From an uncultured Flavobacteriales bacterium (lineage in GTDB: Bacteria > Bacteroidota > Bacteroidia > Flavobacteriales_G > Salibacteraceae), in assembly GCA_913020435.1 (NCBI GenBank), contig CAJVZZ010000012.1, positions 1 through 64,000 of the forward strand: a stretch of 64,000 nt of DNA, read 5' to 3'. The notes below the pieces were generated by a model. It was given only the letters and a program-made list of their open reading frames with translations. It had not been told where the DNA came from and made no database searches. Position numbers and translations under genes: made by a program. Of this stretch, positions 42,081 to 51,763 are shown one piece after another (position 1 is the first letter of the stretch; every line of letters begins with the position of its first letter).

Positions 42081-42100
42081 GTCTACCGAACGTTCGATAG
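42081..42100. promoter_or_regulatory. 20-base near-perfect palindrome, candidate operator
   Basis: TCTACCGAACGTTCGATAGA matches its own reverse complement at 18 of 20 bases, with the perfect core CGAACGTTCG. The next outer pair (42080/42101) also matches. No T-run follows, so it is not a terminator. It lies about 30-50 bases upstream of the likely -7 box of the TonB receptor operon, a fitting position for a dimeric regulator. Confidence 0.5.
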
Positions 42101-42128
42101 ACTCGTCGGAGGTAAACATTTATTTATA

Positions 42129-42136
42129 TCTTTACC
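42129..42136 (+). promoter_or_regulatory. Likely -7 box (TATCTTTA) for the export cassette
   Basis: TATCTTTA differs from TAnnTTTG at one base. It lies 48 bases before the ATG at 42185 and downstream of the palindrome at 42081. Confidence 0.4.
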
Positions 42137-42184
42137 GCCTTAATTTCGCTTCATTTTTGATTTAATAACATTAATCAAGTATAT

Positions 42185-45100
42185 ATGCTTAAAAAATACT
42201 TTGCCTTAATTATCACGACTTTAATGTTGTTTACTATTGGGCATGCTCAAACCGGATCCGGAGGAATAAAAGGTAAAGTCCTAGACCAAGAAACGGGCGA
42301 AGCACTTCCGTTTGTAAATGTTGTTGTTGAACAAAACGGAAGGCAGGTCTCTGGTGCCTCCACTGATTTTGACGGTAAATTTTTCATCAAGCCTCTTTCA
42401 GCTGGAACTTATGATATAAAAGTAAAGTTTGTTGGTTACGCACCTCTTCAACAAAGTGGTGTTGTTGTAAATTCGGATAAAATTACGTTTACTGACATGA
42501 GCATGAAATCAAGTGCATTTGAAATGGATGTTTATGAAGTAGTATCTTACAAGGTTCCTTTAATTTCAAAAGATAATACAAGTTCAGGAGCTACAATCGG
42601 TGGTGAGGACATGGATAAAATGGCAACTCGTTCTGTTGCTGGTATTGCGCAGCAAGTAGGTGGTGTAGTGGCTTCGGACAACGGAGATGCTTCATTAAAC
42701 TTCAGAGGCGCACGTAGTGATGCCAACTACTATTTCATTGACGGTATAAAGGTTAGAGCTTCGGCAAACAGTTTACCTCAGGCAGCAATTGAGCAGGTTT
42801 CTGTTACTACTGGTGGAATTCCTGCCCAGTATGGTGACGTTACTGGTGGCATTATAAGCATTACGACTAAAGGCGCAGCAAGTACTTATGGTGGATCTAT
42901 AGAATATGTTAGCTCTGGATTCCGGAATAAAAACACAGGAAAAGTTTCTGGTTTTGATTCCTATGCATACAATCTAGTAGAGTTTAGTGCCTATGGTCCT
43001 ATTCTATGGAAAAAAGACAGTGCTAACAAAAAAGAAAGTCCAATTCTTGGTTTCTTTCTGTCAGGTAATTTTAACTATGTGGCCGACCCTAGACCTTCTC
43101 ATATCGGCTATTGGAAAGTTAAGGATGATGTTAGAAATAACTTAATTGATCAGCCATTGAGATATAACCCAAGCGGTGATGGAACTGTGCACCAAGGAGA
43201 GTTCTTAAGAATGAATGATCTTGAAAATGTACGAACTAAACCAAATGCTCAGCAATATAGCAGTAGTATTCAAGGTAAATTTGATATAAATACAAGTAAA
43301 AACACCAACTTAACGGTTGGTGGTAATTTAACCTACAACAATAATAAAGGTGTTGGCGCCAATAGTTTTTATGGTGATGGAACTGGGACAGGGAGTTTAT
43401 ATCCAAAAGCCCTAATGAATTGGAATAATAATCCTAGGAGAGTTTCTTATGATTCAAGGGGCTTTGTTAGGTTTACTCAACGCTTTAATGATGGAGCAAA
43501 CGATGCTGAAAATAGCTCGGTTATTAAAAACGCATTTTACACGGTACAGTTTGATTACTCCAATACCTCAAGAAGAACTTTTAATGACGTGCACAAAGAC
43601 GACATTTGGAAATATGGTTACGTAGGTAAATTTCAAAGCTTTGAGAACAAAACATATCGCTTAGAGACAGATTCTGTATTTCAACGACAAGGTTGGATTC
43701 ACCAAACTTTTGAAGATACTCTTATTGGCTTTACTCCTAGTAGTGATAACGTAGCTTTAGCAAATTACACCTCTCAATATTATGACCTATTTGGCTGGAA
43801 GGGTTATGATGCTGAAGGAAACCCAGTATTTGATGCAGCAGCGGCTAGTGATCCAAATGATCCAACTAGAACAAATAAGTTTCTTTCAGACAGAACTACA
43901 ATGCAAACTAACGGTGCTCTATTCAATGGTGATTCACCAAGAGAAATTTTAGGTATGTGGGAAAGCCCAGCAGACCAGTACAATAGCAATGCTAGAGTGA
44001 ATCAAAATCAGTATCGACTTTCTGCTAGTGGATCTGCAGACATTGGGGATCATAACATACTAATTGGTTTTGAATACGAGCAGCGTATTGACAGATCATA
44101 CACAGTCAGTCCAGCTGCAAGCGCAGGAGGAACTAACGGACTTTGGGCTCTGGGTCGTTTATATACGAACTCTCATATTACAGAAAAAGATGTTTTTAAT
44201 CCAGTTATTGACTTTATTCCAGGATTTGAAGGTGCTCCAAGTTACACTTATCCTAGACTTAATTCAGCTCCTGGTGATTATACTGCTGAAGATGCACAAT
44301 CTTTCTTTGATTACAATTTAAGAGATAAAAACTCTGATTTAGCTCCTGGTGGTACTGATGGAATTGATTTTGTTGATTTCGATAATATAGATCCAGATAA
44401 GTTGAGTATTGATTATTTTTCTGCTGATGAACTGCTGAATAATGGTAATGGAATCGTTAGTTACTTTGGATACGATGCTTATGGAAATAAAACAACAGAC
44501 AACCCTACTATTGATGATTTCTTTCAATCTGAAGATGATTTTGGGAACAAAACGAGACCAATTGGAGCTTTTAGACCTATATATATAGCGGGCTATATTC
44601 AAGATAAATTTGCTTTTGATGACTTAGTGTTCAATGTCGGTCTTAGAATTGATCGATACGACGCAAACCAAAAAGTTTTGAGCGACCCATTTGTATTCTT
44701 TCCTACAGTGAAAGCTGGCGAAGATCAAGCCTTAGAATTAGCAGATGGAGCTCACCCCGATAACATCGGTGAAGATTTTGTAGTTTATGTAGATGATATT
44801 AATCAACCTACAGGAATTCAAGGATACCGAGATGGAGCAACGTGGTACAATAAAGAAGGAGTGGAAATTGCAAATCCAGACGTTTTAGCAACATCATCAG
44901 GAATTGCTCCACTTCTAGTAAATCCTGAAAGAACTCGTTCCGAACAGATAAACTCTGATGCATTTGAGGATTATAAACCACAAACGAACTTTATGCCACG
45001 TATTGCATTTTCATTCCCAATATCTGATGAGGCTCTATTCTTCGCTCATTATGATATATTGACGAAAAGACCCACAACTGGAGATCGGCTTGATCCAACT

Positions 45101-46048
45101 GATTATTTGTTTCTAGAATCAACAAGTGGCACGGCTAGAAGAAACAACCCGAACCTACAATCCGAAAAAACTATAGATTATGAAGCTGGGTTTCAACAAA
45201 AATTGACAAATTCAAGTTCTATAAAGATATCAACCTTCTACAGAGAATTTAGAGATCAAGTTCAAGTGGTTAGAGTAAAACAAGCTTTTCCAAGAGAATA
45301 TACTACCTACGGTAATGTTGATTTTGGAACAGTTAAAGGATTAACATTTGCTTATGATCTTAGAAGAACAGGAAATATCTCAGTGAGGGGTTCATATACC
45401 ATCCAGTTTGCCGAAGGTACTGGATCAGATGCTACCACTGCAGCTTCATTAGTAAATGCAGGCTTTGATAACCTTAAAGTAACATCACCTCTAAATTACG
45501 ACCAAAGACATACAATTCAAGCTGTAATTGACTACAGATATGCAGATGGAAAAGACTACAATGGACCAATTATAGCTGGAAAACAAATATTAGCTAATAC
45601 AGGAGCCAACTTAACAATGCTCACGAACTCGGGGAGACCTTTTAATGGTCAGTCTGAATCAACTGGGAATGCTTTTACCACTAATGTTGGTAACGCGTTT
45701 TTAGATGGCACGATCAATGGAAACAATGTCCCTTGGAGTTTTAAAATTGATGCTAGAGTTGACAAAGACTTTTCTCTTAAAATTGGAAAAGAAAAAGAGA
45801 CATCTTTAGACATGACCGTATATCTTCAAATACTCAATGTATTGAATAGTCAAAACATCTTAGGTGTTTACAGATACACTTCTGATCCTCTTGACGATGG
45901 TTACCTTGCAGACGCTAGATGGCAAGGAGATATTGCCGCACAAAACGACACACAATCCTTTGAAGAATTGTATCGAATCAAGAATGCAGTTGGTTCTAAT
46001 TTCAACCTACCTCGTAGACTTAGATTAGGTTTAAGAGTAGCATTTTAA
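42185..46048 (+). CDS. TonB-dependent outer-membrane receptor with carboxypeptidase-like domain
   Basis: The product has 1287 residues. A signal peptide (cut near GHAQ, residue 21) is followed by a carboxypeptidase regulatory-like beta domain (about 27-110, GGIKGKVLDQETGEALPFVNVVV). The plug domain follows (about 145-235), with RGARSDANYYFIDGIKVR and GGIPAQYGDVTGGIISITTKG. The remainder is a 22-strand-type barrel ending in LRLGLRVAF with a terminal Phe. It should import or bind a ligand with TonB energy. Context suggests a different role: it is the first gene of a trio with a huge surface protein and a PorV-like barrel, spaced 28-29 bases apart. It is not beside a SusD gene, so it is not a standard glycan uptake pair. 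Confidence 0.88.
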   Translation: MLKKYFALIITTLMLFTIGHAQTGSGGIKGKVLDQETGEALPFVNVVVEQNGRQVSGASTDFDGKFFIKPLSAGTYDIKVKFVGYAPLQQSGVVVNSDKITFTDMSMKSSAFEMDVYEVVSYKVPLISKDNTSSGATIGGEDMDKMATRSVAGIAQQVGGVVASDNGDASLNFRGARSDANYYFIDGIKVRASANSLPQAAIEQVSVTTGGIPAQYGDVTGGIISITTKGAASTYGGSIEYVSSGFRNKNTGKVSGFDSYAYNLVEFSAYGPILWKKDSANKKESPILGFFLSGNFNYVADPRPSHIGYWKVKDDVRNNLIDQPLRYNPSGDGTVHQGEFLRMNDLENVRTKPNAQQYSSSIQGKFDINTSKNTNLTVGGNLTYNNNKGVGANSFYGDGTGTGSLYPKALMNWNNNPRRVSYDSRGFVRFTQRFNDGANDAENSSVIKNAFYTVQFDYSNTSRRTFNDVHKDDIWKYGYVGKFQSFENKTYRLETDSVFQRQGWIHQTFEDTLIGFTPSSDNVALANYTSQYYDLFGWKGYDAEGNPVFDAAAASDPNDPTRTNKFLSDRTTMQTNGALFNGDSPREILGMWESPADQYNSNARVNQNQYRLSASGSADIGDHNILIGFEYEQRIDRSYTVSPAASAGGTNGLWALGRLYTNSHITEKDVFNPVIDFIPGFEGAPSYTYPRLNSAPGDYTAEDAQSFFDYNLRDKNSDLAPGGTDGIDFVDFDNIDPDKLSIDYFSADELLNNGNGIVSYFGYDAYGNKTTDNPTIDDFFQSEDDFGNKTRPIGAFRPIYIAGYIQDKFAFDDLVFNVGLRIDRYDANQKVLSDPFVFFPTVKAGEDQALELADGAHPDNIGEDFVVYVDDINQPTGIQGYRDGATWYNKEGVEIANPDVLATSSGIAPLLVNPERTRSEQINSDAFEDYKPQTNFMPRIAFSFPISDEALFFAHYDILTKRPTTGDRLDPTDYLFLESTSGTARRNNPNLQSEKTIDYEAGFQQKLTNSSSIKISTFYREFRDQVQVVRVKQAFPREYTTYGNVDFGTVKGLTFAYDLRRTGNISVRGSYTIQFAEGTGSDATTAASLVNAGFDNLKVTSPLNYDQRHTIQAVIDYRYADGKDYNGPIIAGKQILANTGANLTMLTNSGRPFNGQSESTGNAFTTNVGNAFLDGTINGNNVPWSFKIDARVDKDFSLKIGKEKETSLDMTVYLQILNVLNSQNILGVYRYTSDPLDDGYLADARWQGDIAAQNDTQSFEELYRIKNAVGSNFNLPRRLRLGLRVAF

Positions 46049-46076
46049 TTAATTTCTGATTTCATATTAAAGTAAG

Positions 46077-49000
46077 ATGAAAAATTTCCTTCTAATATTA
46101 GCAGCAGTTTTAATAAGTACCTTCTCATTTGCTAGAGAAAGTGAAAAGTCAGGAAGTCGTTCTGGCAAAAAGCCCAATGGTAGCCTTGCTGCGAACTGTT
46201 CTCCTGCAACCCAGAGTACTGAGCTAGATATTAATAATACTAGAGCTCTTATTCAAACCGGTGGTGACATGTGGTGGGATTTTACAAGACCGCAATATGA
46301 AATTCCAAAAAACAGTGGACAAACGGCTTTATTTGCCGGATCACTATGGATGGGTGGTAGAGATATCTCAGGACAACTTAAAGTGGCTGCTCAAATGTTT
46401 AGAGCAAGTGGTCAGGATTTTTGGACTGGCCCATTGAGCCTTATTGACGCTGAAATTGATCCAGCTACTTGTGTCGAGTATGATAGACACTTCCCTACGA
46501 CTAGATCTGAAGTCTCGGAATTTGTAGGTTGGTATGAAGCAGGTATCAATGATGCTGCTAACGGAACGGCGACACAAGCAGATCAATACCCTGGATATTC
46601 TGTTCCAAGAAGTATTTTAGATTATCCCGCAAAAGGAAGAGCCTTCGCTCCTTATAACGAATCTGACGATTTAGCTCCATATGTTGATAGAAATGGAGAT
46701 GGAGATTATGATCCTACTCAAGGTGACTACCCTGCCTATGATTTAAACAATTCTAGTGACTGTAAGGAGCGTATCGTTAACTTATTCGGTGATCAAAACC
46801 TTTGGTGGGTTTTCAACGATAAAGGAAATGTTCATACAGAAACTGGAGCATCGTCGATTGGAATGGAAATTAGAGCACAAGCATTTGCTTTTGCTACTAA
46901 TGATGAGATCAATAACATGACTTTTTACAATTACGAGCTTGTAAACAGAAGTACGTTTACACTAACTGACACTTATTTTGGTCAATGGGTTGATGCCGAT
47001 TTAGGCTGTAGTGCAGATGATTATGTTGGATGTGACGTTCAAAGAGGACTTGGTTATTGTTATAATGGAGATAATAATGATGAAGATTGTAATGGTGTAA
47101 CTGGTTATGGAAATCTACCTCCAGCAATTGGTGTAGATTTTTTCCAAGGGCCATTTCAAGACAACGACGGAGTTGACAACCCATTAACTGAAAAATATGC
47201 AGAAGCTATAAAAAACGATGGTATTCCTTATAAAGGTATTGGAATTGGATATGGTGATGGCGTCATTGATAATGAGCGTTTTGGAATGCGTAAATTTCTT
47301 TATCACAATAGAAGTTCAGGACCTCAAGCAACTCAAGACCCTCAGACTGGTGTTGAATTCTATAACTATTTACGCAGTGTTTGGAGAGATGGTAGTAAAA
47401 TGTTGTACGGCGGTACAGGGCATCAAGGTGATAGTAAGGCAGACCCAAATACTGAGGCAGATTATATGTTTCCTAATGACACCGATCCAATAGGTTGGGG
47501 TACTGGAGGAAGACCTCAAGACCCTTGGACTGAAGTTACTGCTGGAAATGCGCCAAATGACAGAAGGTTTATGCAATCTGCGGGACCTTTTACACTAGAA
47601 CCTGGCGCCGTAAATAATATAACAGTAGGTGTAGTTTGGGCTAGAGCCACGAACGGAAACAATCTAAGTTCCATTGATGTGTTAAAAAAAGCAGATGATA
47701 AAACACAAGCATTATTCGACAACTGCTTCAGAATCCTAAGTGGTCCGGACGCTCCGAATCTTTCTATTCGTGAAATGGAAAATGAGCTTATTCTATACTT
47801 AGAAAATCCTCTACTTTCAAACAACTACAACGAAGCTTACCGAGAAACTGATCCTACGATTATTGCTCCTGATTCAGTTCAAGGGAGACCAATAACTGAT
47901 GGTGAAATTGAAGATTTTAAAACCTATTTCTTCCAAGGTTATATGATTTATCAATTGAAAGATGATGCTGTTTCTACTGGTGACTTAAAAGATCCAGCTA
48001 AAGCAAGATTAATTGGTCAGGTTGATGTTAGAGATTCCGTAACTAAAATTATCAATCTACCTTTTGATAGTGATTTAGGTACTGAAGTTCCTACTCTTGA
48101 AGTGGTAGGAGAAAACAATGGAATTAGCACCTCATTCTTAATTGATCAAGATGCTTTTGCTGAAGGTGTAACTCAACTTGTAAATAATAGAGCTTATTAT
48201 TACTTAGCAGTTGCGTACGGATTTAACCCTAATTCTCAGAACAGAAAATTCATTGGTAGTCGTAAATCTCCAACTGGTGCCATTAAAGCAATAAAAGGAA
48301 TACCACATCAAGTAGATAATCAGAACGGTGGTACTGTATTGAATGCTAAATATGGTGATGGAGTAGAAATTACAAGAGTTGAAGGAATCGGAAATGGCGG
48401 AAATGTCCTTAAGATTACTCAAAAAAGTATAGACGCTATTTTAGCTTCACCAGATCACAGAGTTAAAGAACTTACCTATGAAAAAGGCGCGGGCCCTGTA
48501 ACGGTTAAAGTTGTTGACCCTGTTGCAATAAAAGGTGGTGATTATACCATTTGGTTAAGAGACACCAACAGGTATACAAAAGGTGACTTGACCGATGCAT
48601 TCTGGATGGTAACGAGTTCAAAATTTGCAGACACAATTTTCTCAACAAGATCTATTGAAGTTGGTACAGAAAAAATACTTACCGACTTAGGGATTTCAAT
48701 CACTCTTGGTCAAGTGCATAATTCAGGTGAAAAAGAGGTTCGAGATTTAGATAATGGATTCCTATTCTCAGAAGTTGTGTTTAAAGATCCTTCTAAAGCT
48801 TGGTTAAGCGGTGTTGCTGATGCTGACGGAACTATTGAATCTAACTGGATTTTAAGTGGAACCAGTGCTTTGGAAGATGCTGCTGGATCTCCTATAGATG
48901 AAAGCAAATTTGATGATTGGAACTACTACTTCGGTTCAACACCAGGATTTACTAACGTTTCCAAAAAAGGCAAGGGACTCGATGATTTGCAAAAATTCGA

Positions 49001-50603
49001 ACAAATTGAAGGTGGTACAATTGCTCCTTTCAGAATGACCTCATACAAATCTGCGAATGGACCAGTACCTGGCTATTTACAAGCTGAAGTTAAATTAAGT
49101 ATTGGTTCTCCCATTTTTGGTGCTGGACATTTATGGCAATATGACATTAGAGGAATAGACAGACAAAGTGATTCAGATAGAGTTCAGCAACTATTTATTC
49201 CTGCTGATTCTATCAATCAATTGAACTATTTGCACGGTGTTAACATTGTTATTACTGATAATAAAGAACATTGGTCACGTTGTCCTGTATTAGAAATGAG
49301 AGATACAATATCTGAAAGTGAAGGAAATGCTATTCGAGGTCAACTCCGTGATGCTGCTTCTGTAGATAAGGAAGGTAATCCTGCTACAGATACAACTGCA
49401 GCGGGTAGTAGTAATCCAAGTGATCCTAATTATATAGCATCAAAAGGTATGGGTTGGTTCCCTGGTTACGCAATTGATGTTGAAACAGGTGAACGATTAA
49501 ATATGGCTTTTGGAGAAGATTCTTACCTTATCGAAGAAAATGGCCGTGATATGGTCTGGAACCCAACTTCTACAGAATTTGAAGGTCCTAGAAGAGCATT
49601 TAGAGGAGGAGGAAAACATATTATCTATGTCTTCAGAAATAATGCTGTAGAAGATGAAATAATAAATTTTGATGATTATTCTACTGCTGATTACAACAGA
49701 GCAAAGTTCTTCTTGGATTTAAATTACAATAATCCAGAGAACAGAATGCCTCGTTATGATGCAGGAAAATGGATGGCAGCTAAGCTTAAAGATGTTAGAG
49801 GTTATCTTGATCCAAGGTTCAAGAAAGAGGATACTTTAATGCATAATAATGCAGCTAACGTATTCCGTGCTGGAATGTGGGTTGTAAATCCTCTATTGGA
49901 AGAAGGGCAAGAATTCATGAGTACCGATGTAACAATCCGATTGAGAGTGCAACAAGAATATAAGGCTTGGGGTATAGGTGATCCAATTGAAGCTAACGCG
50001 ACACTTGAGGCTGGGAAAAGCTATTATGTGAATGCAGGACCTGTTAAAGTAATCGATGTGAGTAGTTTTAGTGATACACTTAATGATACAACGGTATACA
50101 AAAGAGGTATGACCATTAGTCCTAAAAAGGCTACAAATTATACCTTAGAGTATAAAAATGGCAGATCTGGTACTGATATAGATTCTGTTTTAATCGAACA
50201 AACAAATGGTGGAATGCCAATGTATACATTCTCTTTAGAGGGAATGCAGCCTACTTTTAATAGTCAAACAGTTGCTAAAGACGCACTAGAGGATATTAAG
50301 ATTGTTCCAAATCCATATTATGCTTATAGTAAATATGAGACTAGTAAATTGGATAATAGAATCATTATTACTAATTTACCTAAAACTGTTACAGTTCGAG
50401 TGTATACCATAAATGGTACGTTGGTTAGAACATTAGAGAAAGATGACGATACAATAACATTCTTAGAATGGGACTTGAAAAATCAGTCACGCGTTCCTAT
50501 TGCCTCAGGTATGTATATATACCATATTGACGCACCGGGAATTGGCGAGACTATTCTTAAATGGATGGCTGTTATGAGACCAGTTGATTTAGATAACTTT
50601 TAG
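46077..50603 (+). CDS. Large secreted protein with non-standard C-terminal sorting-like domain
   Basis: The product has 1508 residues with a signal peptide (about 1-19, cut near SFA). The N-terminal part reads TRALIQTGGDMWWD, YEIPKNSGQTALFAGSLWMGG and FWTGPLSL, a pattern I associate with large Bacteroidota/Ignavibacteria surface proteins. A calcium-loop-like DRNGDGDYDP lies near residue 204. The C-terminus begins IKIVPNPYYAYSKYE near residue 1407, then ITNLPKTVTVRVYTINGTLVRTL and PIASGMYIYHI, and ends LKWMAVMRPVDLDNF. This has the PNP start and strand order of T9SS type A domains, but the ending differs from the usual K-rich finish. I infer a surface-displayed protein exported with help of the PorV-like neighbour. 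Enzyme motifs are not seen. Confidence 0.75.
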   Translation: MKNFLLILAAVLISTFSFARESEKSGSRSGKKPNGSLAANCSPATQSTELDINNTRALIQTGGDMWWDFTRPQYEIPKNSGQTALFAGSLWMGGRDISGQLKVAAQMFRASGQDFWTGPLSLIDAEIDPATCVEYDRHFPTTRSEVSEFVGWYEAGINDAANGTATQADQYPGYSVPRSILDYPAKGRAFAPYNESDDLAPYVDRNGDGDYDPTQGDYPAYDLNNSSDCKERIVNLFGDQNLWWVFNDKGNVHTETGASSIGMEIRAQAFAFATNDEINNMTFYNYELVNRSTFTLTDTYFGQWVDADLGCSADDYVGCDVQRGLGYCYNGDNNDEDCNGVTGYGNLPPAIGVDFFQGPFQDNDGVDNPLTEKYAEAIKNDGIPYKGIGIGYGDGVIDNERFGMRKFLYHNRSSGPQATQDPQTGVEFYNYLRSVWRDGSKMLYGGTGHQGDSKADPNTEADYMFPNDTDPIGWGTGGRPQDPWTEVTAGNAPNDRRFMQSAGPFTLEPGAVNNITVGVVWARATNGNNLSSIDVLKKADDKTQALFDNCFRILSGPDAPNLSIREMENELILYLENPLLSNNYNEAYRETDPTIIAPDSVQGRPITDGEIEDFKTYFFQGYMIYQLKDDAVSTGDLKDPAKARLIGQVDVRDSVTKIINLPFDSDLGTEVPTLEVVGENNGISTSFLIDQDAFAEGVTQLVNNRAYYYLAVAYGFNPNSQNRKFIGSRKSPTGAIKAIKGIPHQVDNQNGGTVLNAKYGDGVEITRVEGIGNGGNVLKITQKSIDAILASPDHRVKELTYEKGAGPVTVKVVDPVAIKGGDYTIWLRDTNRYTKGDLTDAFWMVTSSKFADTIFSTRSIEVGTEKILTDLGISITLGQVHNSGEKEVRDLDNGFLFSEVVFKDPSKAWLSGVADADGTIESNWILSGTSALEDAAGSPIDESKFDDWNYYFGSTPGFTNVSKKGKGLDDLQKFEQIEGGTIAPFRMTSYKSANGPVPGYLQAEVKLSIGSPIFGAGHLWQYDIRGIDRQSDSDRVQQLFIPADSINQLNYLHGVNIVITDNKEHWSRCPVLEMRDTISESEGNAIRGQLRDAASVDKEGNPATDTTAAGSSNPSDPNYIASKGMGWFPGYAIDVETGERLNMAFGEDSYLIEENGRDMVWNPTSTEFEGPRRAFRGGGKHIIYVFRNNAVEDEIINFDDYSTADYNRAKFFLDLNYNNPENRMPRYDAGKWMAAKLKDVRGYLDPRFKKEDTLMHNNAANVFRAGMWVVNPLLEEGQEFMSTDVTIRLRVQQEYKAWGIGDPIEANATLEAGKSYYVNAGPVKVIDVSSFSDTLNDTTVYKRGMTISPKKATNYTLEYKNGRSGTDIDSVLIEQTNGGMPMYTFSLEGMQPTFNSQTVAKDALEDIKIVPNPYYAYSKYETSKLDNRIIITNLPKTVTVRVYTINGTLVRTLEKDDDTITFLEWDLKNQSRVPIASGMYIYHIDAPGIGETILKWMAVMRPVDLDNF

Positions 50604-50632
50604 AATTATTGTTTAGGGAGAATAATCAAGAT

Positions 50633-51712
50633 ATGATGAGAAATAGACATAATAATACTTTATTCCTGTTGATGTTTTTTAGTTTGTTGTTATCGAGCGT
50701 AGCTTTTGCTGGTAATAAAGATAGAATTGGACAAAATGGGGCCAATGAATTATCTATTAACCCTTGGACTAGGAGTGCTGGATTCGCAAATGCTAATTCA
50801 ACTTCTGTAATTGGATTGGAATCTTTAGCTTCTAATATTTCAGGATTGGCATTTACACCTAAAACTGAAATTCAATATGGATTTACAAGATTTATGGGTG
50901 GTGCTTCTAACATTAACACATTTGGACTTGCTCAAAAAGTAGGTGAGGGAAATGTTATTGGATTTTCCATCACGAATATGGCCTTTGGGGACATTGATGT
51001 GACTACTGAAGATAATCCAGAAGGTGGAATTGGAGTATATGCTCCACAATTTCTCAATTTGAACTTAGCATACGCAAGGGCATTCTCAAACAGTATTTAT
51101 GCTGGTATAGCAGTAAAAATGATTTCAGAATCTATTACGGATGTTAAAACTCAAGGTGTTGCTTTTGATATAGGAATTAGATATGTGACCGGTAAAGACG
51201 ATAACCTGAAATTTGGAATTGCTTTAAGAAATATTGGACCTAAATTAAAATTTGAGGGTAATGGACTTTCTGTAAAAACAGATTTTGAGGATAAAGAATT
51301 TACATTTAATCAGAGATCAGAAGCATTTGAAATGCCCGCTGAATTAAACATGGGAGTGGCTTACGACTTTTATGTAGGCTCTGTAAGCGATACTTCAGGT
51401 AAAAGCGAAAAAACAGAACATCGGATAACACCTGCAGGAACATTTGTGTCTAAATCTTTTGGTAAAGATGAATTGAGAGTAGGCGCTGAATATGCATGGC
51501 GAGAAATGGTAATGGGTAGAGTAGGTTTAATGTATGAGCAAGGGATTTTCTCAAATAATGATCGGTCTACTATGTATACAGGCCCTTCTGCAGGACTTAG
51601 CTTTGTATATCCAATCAATGAAAATGGAACTACAATTGCGATCGATTACTCATATGTATTTACTAATCCTTATGGTGGAAATCATTTATTTGGATTGCGT
51701 TTGAACCTATAA
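50633..51712 (+). CDS. PorV/PorQ-family outer-membrane barrel protein
   Basis: The product has 359 residues from the ATG at 50633; an upstream TTG adds eight residues before the signal peptide. After the signal (cut near VAFAG) the mature start resembles PorV/PorQ: NELSINPWTRSAGFANANSTSVIGLESLASNISGLAFTPKTEIQYGFTRF. Barrel strands follow to LFGLRLNL at the end. In known T9SS, PorV is the outer-membrane shuttle that takes cargo from the translocon to the attachment complex. This paralogue is the third gene of the trio with the receptor and the 1508-residue protein, and is followed by a strong terminator, so it is probably their dedicated partner. Confidence 0.8.
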   Translation: MMRNRHNNTLFLLMFFSLLLSSVAFAGNKDRIGQNGANELSINPWTRSAGFANANSTSVIGLESLASNISGLAFTPKTEIQYGFTRFMGGASNINTFGLAQKVGEGNVIGFSITNMAFGDIDVTTEDNPEGGIGVYAPQFLNLNLAYARAFSNSIYAGIAVKMISESITDVKTQGVAFDIGIRYVTGKDDNLKFGIALRNIGPKLKFEGNGLSVKTDFEDKEFTFNQRSEAFEMPAELNMGVAYDFYVGSVSDTSGKSEKTEHRITPAGTFVSKSFGKDELRVGAEYAWREMVMGRVGLMYEQGIFSNNDRSTMYTGPSAGLSFVYPINENGTTIAIDYSYVFTNPYGGNHLFGLRLNL

Positions 51713-51738
51713 AAGTTAAATCAAATATTATTTTATTG

Positions 51739-51763
51739 ATGGAATCCTGAATCAGGATTCCAT
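51739..51763 (+). terminator. Terminator of the export cassette
   Basis: ATGGAATCCTGA and TCAGGATTCCAT are perfect 12-base arms around one base, followed by TTTTTT. It lies 27 bases after the PorV-like gene and ends the operon. Confidence 0.85.

Follow-up and report, generated by a model that had tools for sequence, protein, structure and literature searches.

A TonB receptor, surface protein and PorV/PorQ-family barrel cassette that probably encodes an undescribed surface complex of Bacteroidota

Organisation of the cassette

Within the window, meaning the whole stretch of 64,000 nucleotides from an uncultured Flavobacteriales bacterium that was analysed, three genes on the + strand follow one another at distances of 28 and 29 bases, which bears out the original prediction of three same-strand genes with short gaps. 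The genes and the features recognised in and around them are as follows.

42185-46048, + strand: P0001, 1287 aa, TonB-dependent receptor and first gene of the cassette (open reading frame and Pfam)
46077-50603, + strand: P0002, 1508 aa, proposed surface cargo of the cassette (open reading frame)
46197-47738, + strand: residues 41-554 of P0002, predicted beta-supersandwich (AlphaFold model and VIA-align)
50286-50600, + strand: residues 1404-1508 of P0002, C-terminal domain (CTD) of a distinct subclass of T9SS CTDs (alignment and PDB comparison)
50562-50600, + strand: class-defining tail of 13 residues, WMAVMRPVDLDNF, which follows the conserved Lys1495 at the C-terminus
50633-51712, + strand: P0003, 359 aa, outer membrane barrel of the PorV/PorQ family (NF033709 and tree)
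51739-51763, + strand: Rho-independent terminator-like hairpin at the operon end, with perfect 11-bp arms, a 3-base loop and a T run

The hairpin corresponds to the strong terminator that had been said to close the cassette, and a hairpin with a T run is found at the same position in relatives, with differing sequences. Upstream of P0001, a stretch with TATATCTTTACCGCC (42114-42140) is common to the related loci L033, L035, L037 and L038 and is likely the promoter. The 10-bp palindrome CGAACGTTCG, which had been described as opening the cassette, is present before P0001 (42087-42096), but it is missing from the congeneric locus L035 and was therefore dropped as a part of the cassette.

The TonB-dependent receptor

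P0001 is a TonB-dependent receptor. It matches the Pfam models CarbopepD_reg_2, a carboxypeptidase-regulatory-like domain, in its N-terminal part (61.3 bits, above the cut-off) and Plug (40.7 bits against a cut-off of 23.9), while its barrel region gives weak matches to models of TonB receptors. Residues of the Plug region are invariant across relatives. The suggestion that this receptor is an energy partner in the export of P0002 found no support; since export is powered by the T9SS motor (PMC10994853), such a role is unnecessary. On the simplest reading P0001 would be a transporter working with the displayed P0002.

The barrel protein and its relatives

P0003 matches the PorV/PorQ subfamily model NF033709 over its full length (124.8 bits, cut-off 90), and lies below the equivalog cut-offs of PorV (52.3 versus 250 bits), PorQ (59.2 versus 220) and PorV2 (41.3 versus 325); the PorP/SprF model gave 15.6 bits against a cut-off of 90.55. 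Thus P0003 is a member of the PorV/PorQ family that is neither PorV, PorQ nor PorV2. The same genome encodes a PorV (449 bits on its equivalog model), located beside PorU, and a PorQ (303 bits), which together with P0003 and a fourth barrel, PorVx, make up its family members above the cut-off; a fifth match falls under it.

In a phylogenetic tree of the barrels, drawn from genomes of mixed quality, PorV, PorQ and PorVx are each monophyletic (100/100), and the barrels of the P0003 type (P3), whether near, far or among four divergent ones, form a single clade (100/98). PorVx and seven divergent triad barrels constitute the sister clade of P3 (99/94). A 99/97 branch separates PorV plus PorQ from all TonB-linked barrels, which, the tree being midpoint rooted, is a split and not a proven order.

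PorVx belongs to a second operon, located on the - strand of contig C3 of the same genome at about 41.2-53.4 kb (L141:5210-11765 and L145:1814-7384). Besides PorVx and a TonB receptor it encodes C445, the 701-aa protein P701, whose CTD is of the PNPYY type, a protein with a type A CTD and two lipoproteins, one of them of the NHL type; its seven (or six) genes are kept in all ten relatives checked. The operon follows the same logic of TonB receptor, CTD protein and barrel as the P0001-P0003 cassette.

Conservation of the cassette and co-occurrence with T9SS

Every one of the 35 family genomes searched has relatives of P0002 (P2), and GTDB genomes yielded 526 confirmed stretches. The P2 gene is also present on two MAG contigs labelled as a Euryarchaeota archaeon and a Sphingomonadales bacterium (L072, L092), which are probably mislabelled or contaminated bins.

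In a phylum-wide sample, taken mostly outside the class of the window and of mixed genome quality, a P0003-type barrel is encoded by 104 of 395 genomes, with 131 genes in total. A CTD match lies directly 5' of the barrel in at least 95 of these 131 genes, among the matches listed, at a median distance of 83 bp. Reading of 40 loci selected by barrel matches revealed the row TonB receptor, P2 and barrel in nearly all of them, and a script found the complete row in the same order for 91 of 105 barrels examined, the P0001 orthologue being located 5' of P2 in each of the 91 triads. Of the other 14, eight are explained by the end of a contig or region, by a frameshift or by overlapping open reading frames, leaving six real exceptions, two without the receptor and four without P2. 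The three genes are thus not separated in most relatives, and their linkage is far beyond chance.

Apparently 'solo' P2 loci were considered as cases of broken linkage and rejected, because the receptor and barrel genes are present elsewhere in all 21 such genomes. Wherever the gap between receptor and barrel could be read (18 genomes), a full P2 gene lies inside it (18/18), and the solo loci are therefore extra P2 copies. A linked barrel was missing for nine of 20 CTD-class matches checked; such proteins may be served by PorV or another barrel. One far genome (G392) carries two tandem cassettes and an extra barrel (L205:3030-18566), a cassette duplication, with a third CTD match nearby (G392:C18:197251-197538).

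The distribution of the cassette is nested within that of T9SS: among the 395 genomes, the 104 with the barrel all fall within the 182 with the CTD class, and these within the 266 that are PorU-positive, with no exceptions. Fisher tests of this co-occurrence give extreme values that ignore shared ancestry.

The C-terminal domain of P0002

The CTD of P0002, which runs from PNPYYAYSKYE to MRPVDLDNF, had been said to resemble the type A sorting signal and to differ from it, and both parts of this description hold. The alignment shows that it begins VPNPYY and retains motifs B (Y..G), D (GxY) and E (a Lys close to the C-terminus). On the type A model TIGR04183 its score of 19.7 bits stays under the cut-off of 23, and the domain is not among the 126 places recognised by PF18962 in its own genome, so that it does not score as an ordinary type A domain. 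PorU, PorZ and P701 are the other own-genome CTDs outside these 126 places. As regards type B, P0002 matches neither TIGR04131 nor PF13585 at E up to 1, and no ChiA-type (type C) model appears among its matches in the Pfam and NCBIfam libraries, which are not confirmed to include one.

The nearest relatives of the domain are found in PorZ and PorU. The best NCBIfam match to P0002 is the C-terminal part of the PorZ model (28.8 bits, under the whole-protein cut-off of that model), which is also the best match in a far P2 relative. Comparison of the CTD model with the PDB placed PorZ first (Z 10.3, 2.5 A over 88 residues) and PorU second (Z 9.2), followed by the cleaved-type CTDs of mirolase (7.9), RemA (7.2), NucA (7.2) and RemZ (7.1). 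A search of solved-structure sequences with a CTD profile gave weak matches only (PorZ, E 0.047; PorU, E 0.95). As modelled, the domain has the fold of a type A-like Ig-like beta-sandwich.

The tail after the conserved Lys is exactly 13 residues long in 92 of 92 P2 proteins encoded 5' of P3-clade barrels; the far loci were selected via the barrel and not the CTD, and therefore the count for them is not circular. CTDs paired with the sister barrel clade have a 5-residue end (18/18), which means that the CTD subclass tracks the barrel clade. Five residues also follow the conserved Lys in PorU, PorZ and the CTD protein of the second cassette, and in 20 type A CTDs from the genome of the window four to five residues remain past the conserved Lys or Arg. 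Extra P2 copies of the near set all have the 13-residue tail (27/27), while far orphan P2 proteins with no linked barrel have tails of 8-13 residues.

Among the orphans, those at L253:7182-10544 and L254:91-6655 end in ..KLAVIQREW and ..KAAIIQREW, an 8-residue tail, with neither receptor nor barrel adjoining; L254 has two of them in tandem, and they possibly form a further subclass. Seven triads (L245, L247 and L257-L261) encode a CTD without the 13-residue tail and a barrel of the PorVx clade, and offer a natural comparison for the function of the tail.

The idea that P0002 has a sorting signal class of its own therefore stands at the sequence level, through the fixed tail and a CTD divergence that follows the barrel clade. 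It does not extend to a new kind of signal: with type A-like fold and motifs, nearest to PorZ and PorU, the domain is a subclass.

Retention of the CTD is known for PorU and PorZ, in PorZ by binding PorQ (PMC10202324, PMC11285876), and a cognate barrel has been proposed to shield CTDs from cleavage (PMC10202324). Both proteins tolerate a C-terminal extension (PMC11285876), so a longer tail alone need not alter recognition, which counts against a dedicated carrier. Alternatively, P0002 could be ordinary type A-like cargo shuttled by the canonical PorV, and P0003 a later anchor or a FadL-like porin, with no separate branch of the system. The retained motifs B, D and E, the conserved Lys and the type A-like beta-sandwich suit this explanation, as do the presence of PorU in every cassette genome and the predicted binding of PorV to short and long CTDs alike (PMC11969387). 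However, if PorV alone read the CTD, neither the exact match of tail length and CTD subclass to the barrel clade nor the failure of type A models to recognise the domain would be explained, and we regard this account as unlikely, though it deserves serious consideration.

The N-terminal half of P0002

P0002 begins with a hydrophobic segment resembling a signal peptide. A lipobox is absent from this region (MKNFLLILAAVLISTFSFARE) and no SusD match was obtained in the Pfam and NCBIfam profile searches, hence P0002 is not a surface lipoprotein of the SusD type. It has no Pfam match at E up to 1, and sequence searches of solved structures with the whole of P0002 or P0003 gave no significant match.

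The AlphaFold model of the N-terminal half has a pLDDT of 85.6. Residues 41-554, and these only, resemble the N-terminal domain of GH94, GH65, GH116 and GH15 enzymes, with VIA-align Z scores of 17-19 over about 250 residues, and the best 50 VIA-align rows are mostly carbohydrate enzymes of these types; Foldseek alone gave poor TM scores, and residues from about 555 to 1400 are barely touched by the rows of the structural search. The similarity suggests a carbohydrate-facing domain, a hint from the fold that is no proof of glycan binding. In the family genomes the same domain is also encoded outside P2, in smaller proteins of about 550-870 aa, which are a family of their own.

These features bear on another explanation, namely that the complex serves structure or assembly, a barrel of the FadL family keeping the surface protein next to the TonB-type barrel, with no nutrient uptake. 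A precedent exists in the BAM complex of Bacteroidota, where the FadL-family barrel BamG binds BamH, a surface lipoprotein, and keeps it next to BamA (PMC12578637, PMC12611786), and the presence of the cassette in all 35 family genomes would fit. Yet a purely structural barrel would have no need of the well-scoring Plug domain and invariant Plug-region residues of P0001, and the N-terminal half of P0002 is similar to domains of carbohydrate enzymes; this explanation is improbable. Mere co-transcription of neighbouring genes whose products have no physical partnership is very hard to reconcile with an order and direction fixed across the classes of the phylum (91/105) and with a tail that matches the barrel clade.

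Proposed surface complex

We consider it rather likely that the cassette encodes a T9SS-assisted, three-part surface complex of the outer membrane, in which P0003 is the carrier and anchor of P0002, and P0001 is the transporter. A dedicated carrier is the best reading because of the triad linkage, the co-occurrence with T9SS, a CTD nearest to those of PorZ and PorU, the tail length, the four family barrels and four CTDs outside the PF18962 places in the same genome, and the existence of a second cassette. To this extent the original prediction of a PorV paralogue acting as a dedicated shuttle is retained, and it withstood two of its three refuting conditions, an ordinary type A score of the CTD and separation of the genes in most relatives. 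Its restriction to a single private cargo goes too far: many genomes have a single barrel for several P2 copies, all with the tail of the same kind.

According to this proposal, P0002 would cross the inner membrane via Sec and the outer membrane via the SprA/Sov translocon, from which P0003 would then extract and hold it by binding the CTD, including the fixed 13-residue tail. The CTD is probably uncleaved, as is that of PorZ on PorQ, which would make P0003 both a carrier and a permanent anchor. TonB-dependent transport through the complex would fall to P0001, with the N-terminal beta-supersandwich of P0002 as an external capture or cap domain, comparable to SusD with SusC and delivered by T9SS. 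A Plug-bearing receptor adjoining a P0002 with a possibly carbohydrate-facing domain is most simply read as a transporter whose capture protein is delivered by T9SS and mounted on its own barrel. The occurrence of the cassette in every genome of the family may indicate envelope housekeeping rather than the uptake of a single nutrient.

Type B cargo is documented to have carriers of its own; for type A-like CTDs the open-access literature searched discusses only PorV, and PorQ for PorZ. A cassette spanning classes would show that the PorV/PorQ family has diversified into matched pairs of carrier and cargo, and would also unite T9SS with TonB-dependent transport in a single complex. How T9SS separates resident surface proteins from cleaved cargo would then become directly testable via the 13-residue tail. 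More tentatively, and with the balance somewhat against it, the P3 and PorVx clades may be dedicated carriers, each recognising a matching CTD subclass by the exact length of its C-terminus and building a TonB-transporter complex whose lid is delivered by T9SS. Such complexes would be an ancient alternative to SusCD uptake systems throughout the phylum. If true, this would add a new layer of address codes to T9SS, and much of the PorV/PorQ family would not be T9SS machinery.

Comparison with known systems

No description of a cassette of TonB receptor, P2 and barrel was found in the open-access literature. The closest parallels are the pairs PorZ-PorQ and PorU-PorV, in which a CTD protein is retained through a barrel of the PorV/PorQ family, as proposed for P0002, and whose CTDs are nearest to that of P0002 in fold and profile matches. 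However, PorZ and PorU are parts of the T9SS machine with a 5-residue tail, while the tail of P0002 has 13 residues; and porQ does not adjoin porZ in the same genome, whereas the P0003 gene directly follows that of P0002 in an operon with a TonB receptor.

Type B cargo and its cognate PorP/SprF shuttles (PMC12618676) share with the cassette the order of a cargo gene followed by its own carrier barrel, as well as orphans that share one carrier, but the CTD of P0002 is not of type B and P0003 belongs to the PorV/PorQ family. In SusC-SusD, the gene of a TonB-dependent transporter likewise lies beside that of a large surface protein; P0002, unlike SusD, is a non-lipoprotein with no SusD match, and has a T9SS CTD and a proposed barrel of its own. 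Finally, BamG-BamH (PMC12611786) is similar in that a surface protein is held next to a larger barrel by one of the FadL family, although BamH is a lipoprotein, the partner is BamA, and no T9SS signal takes part.
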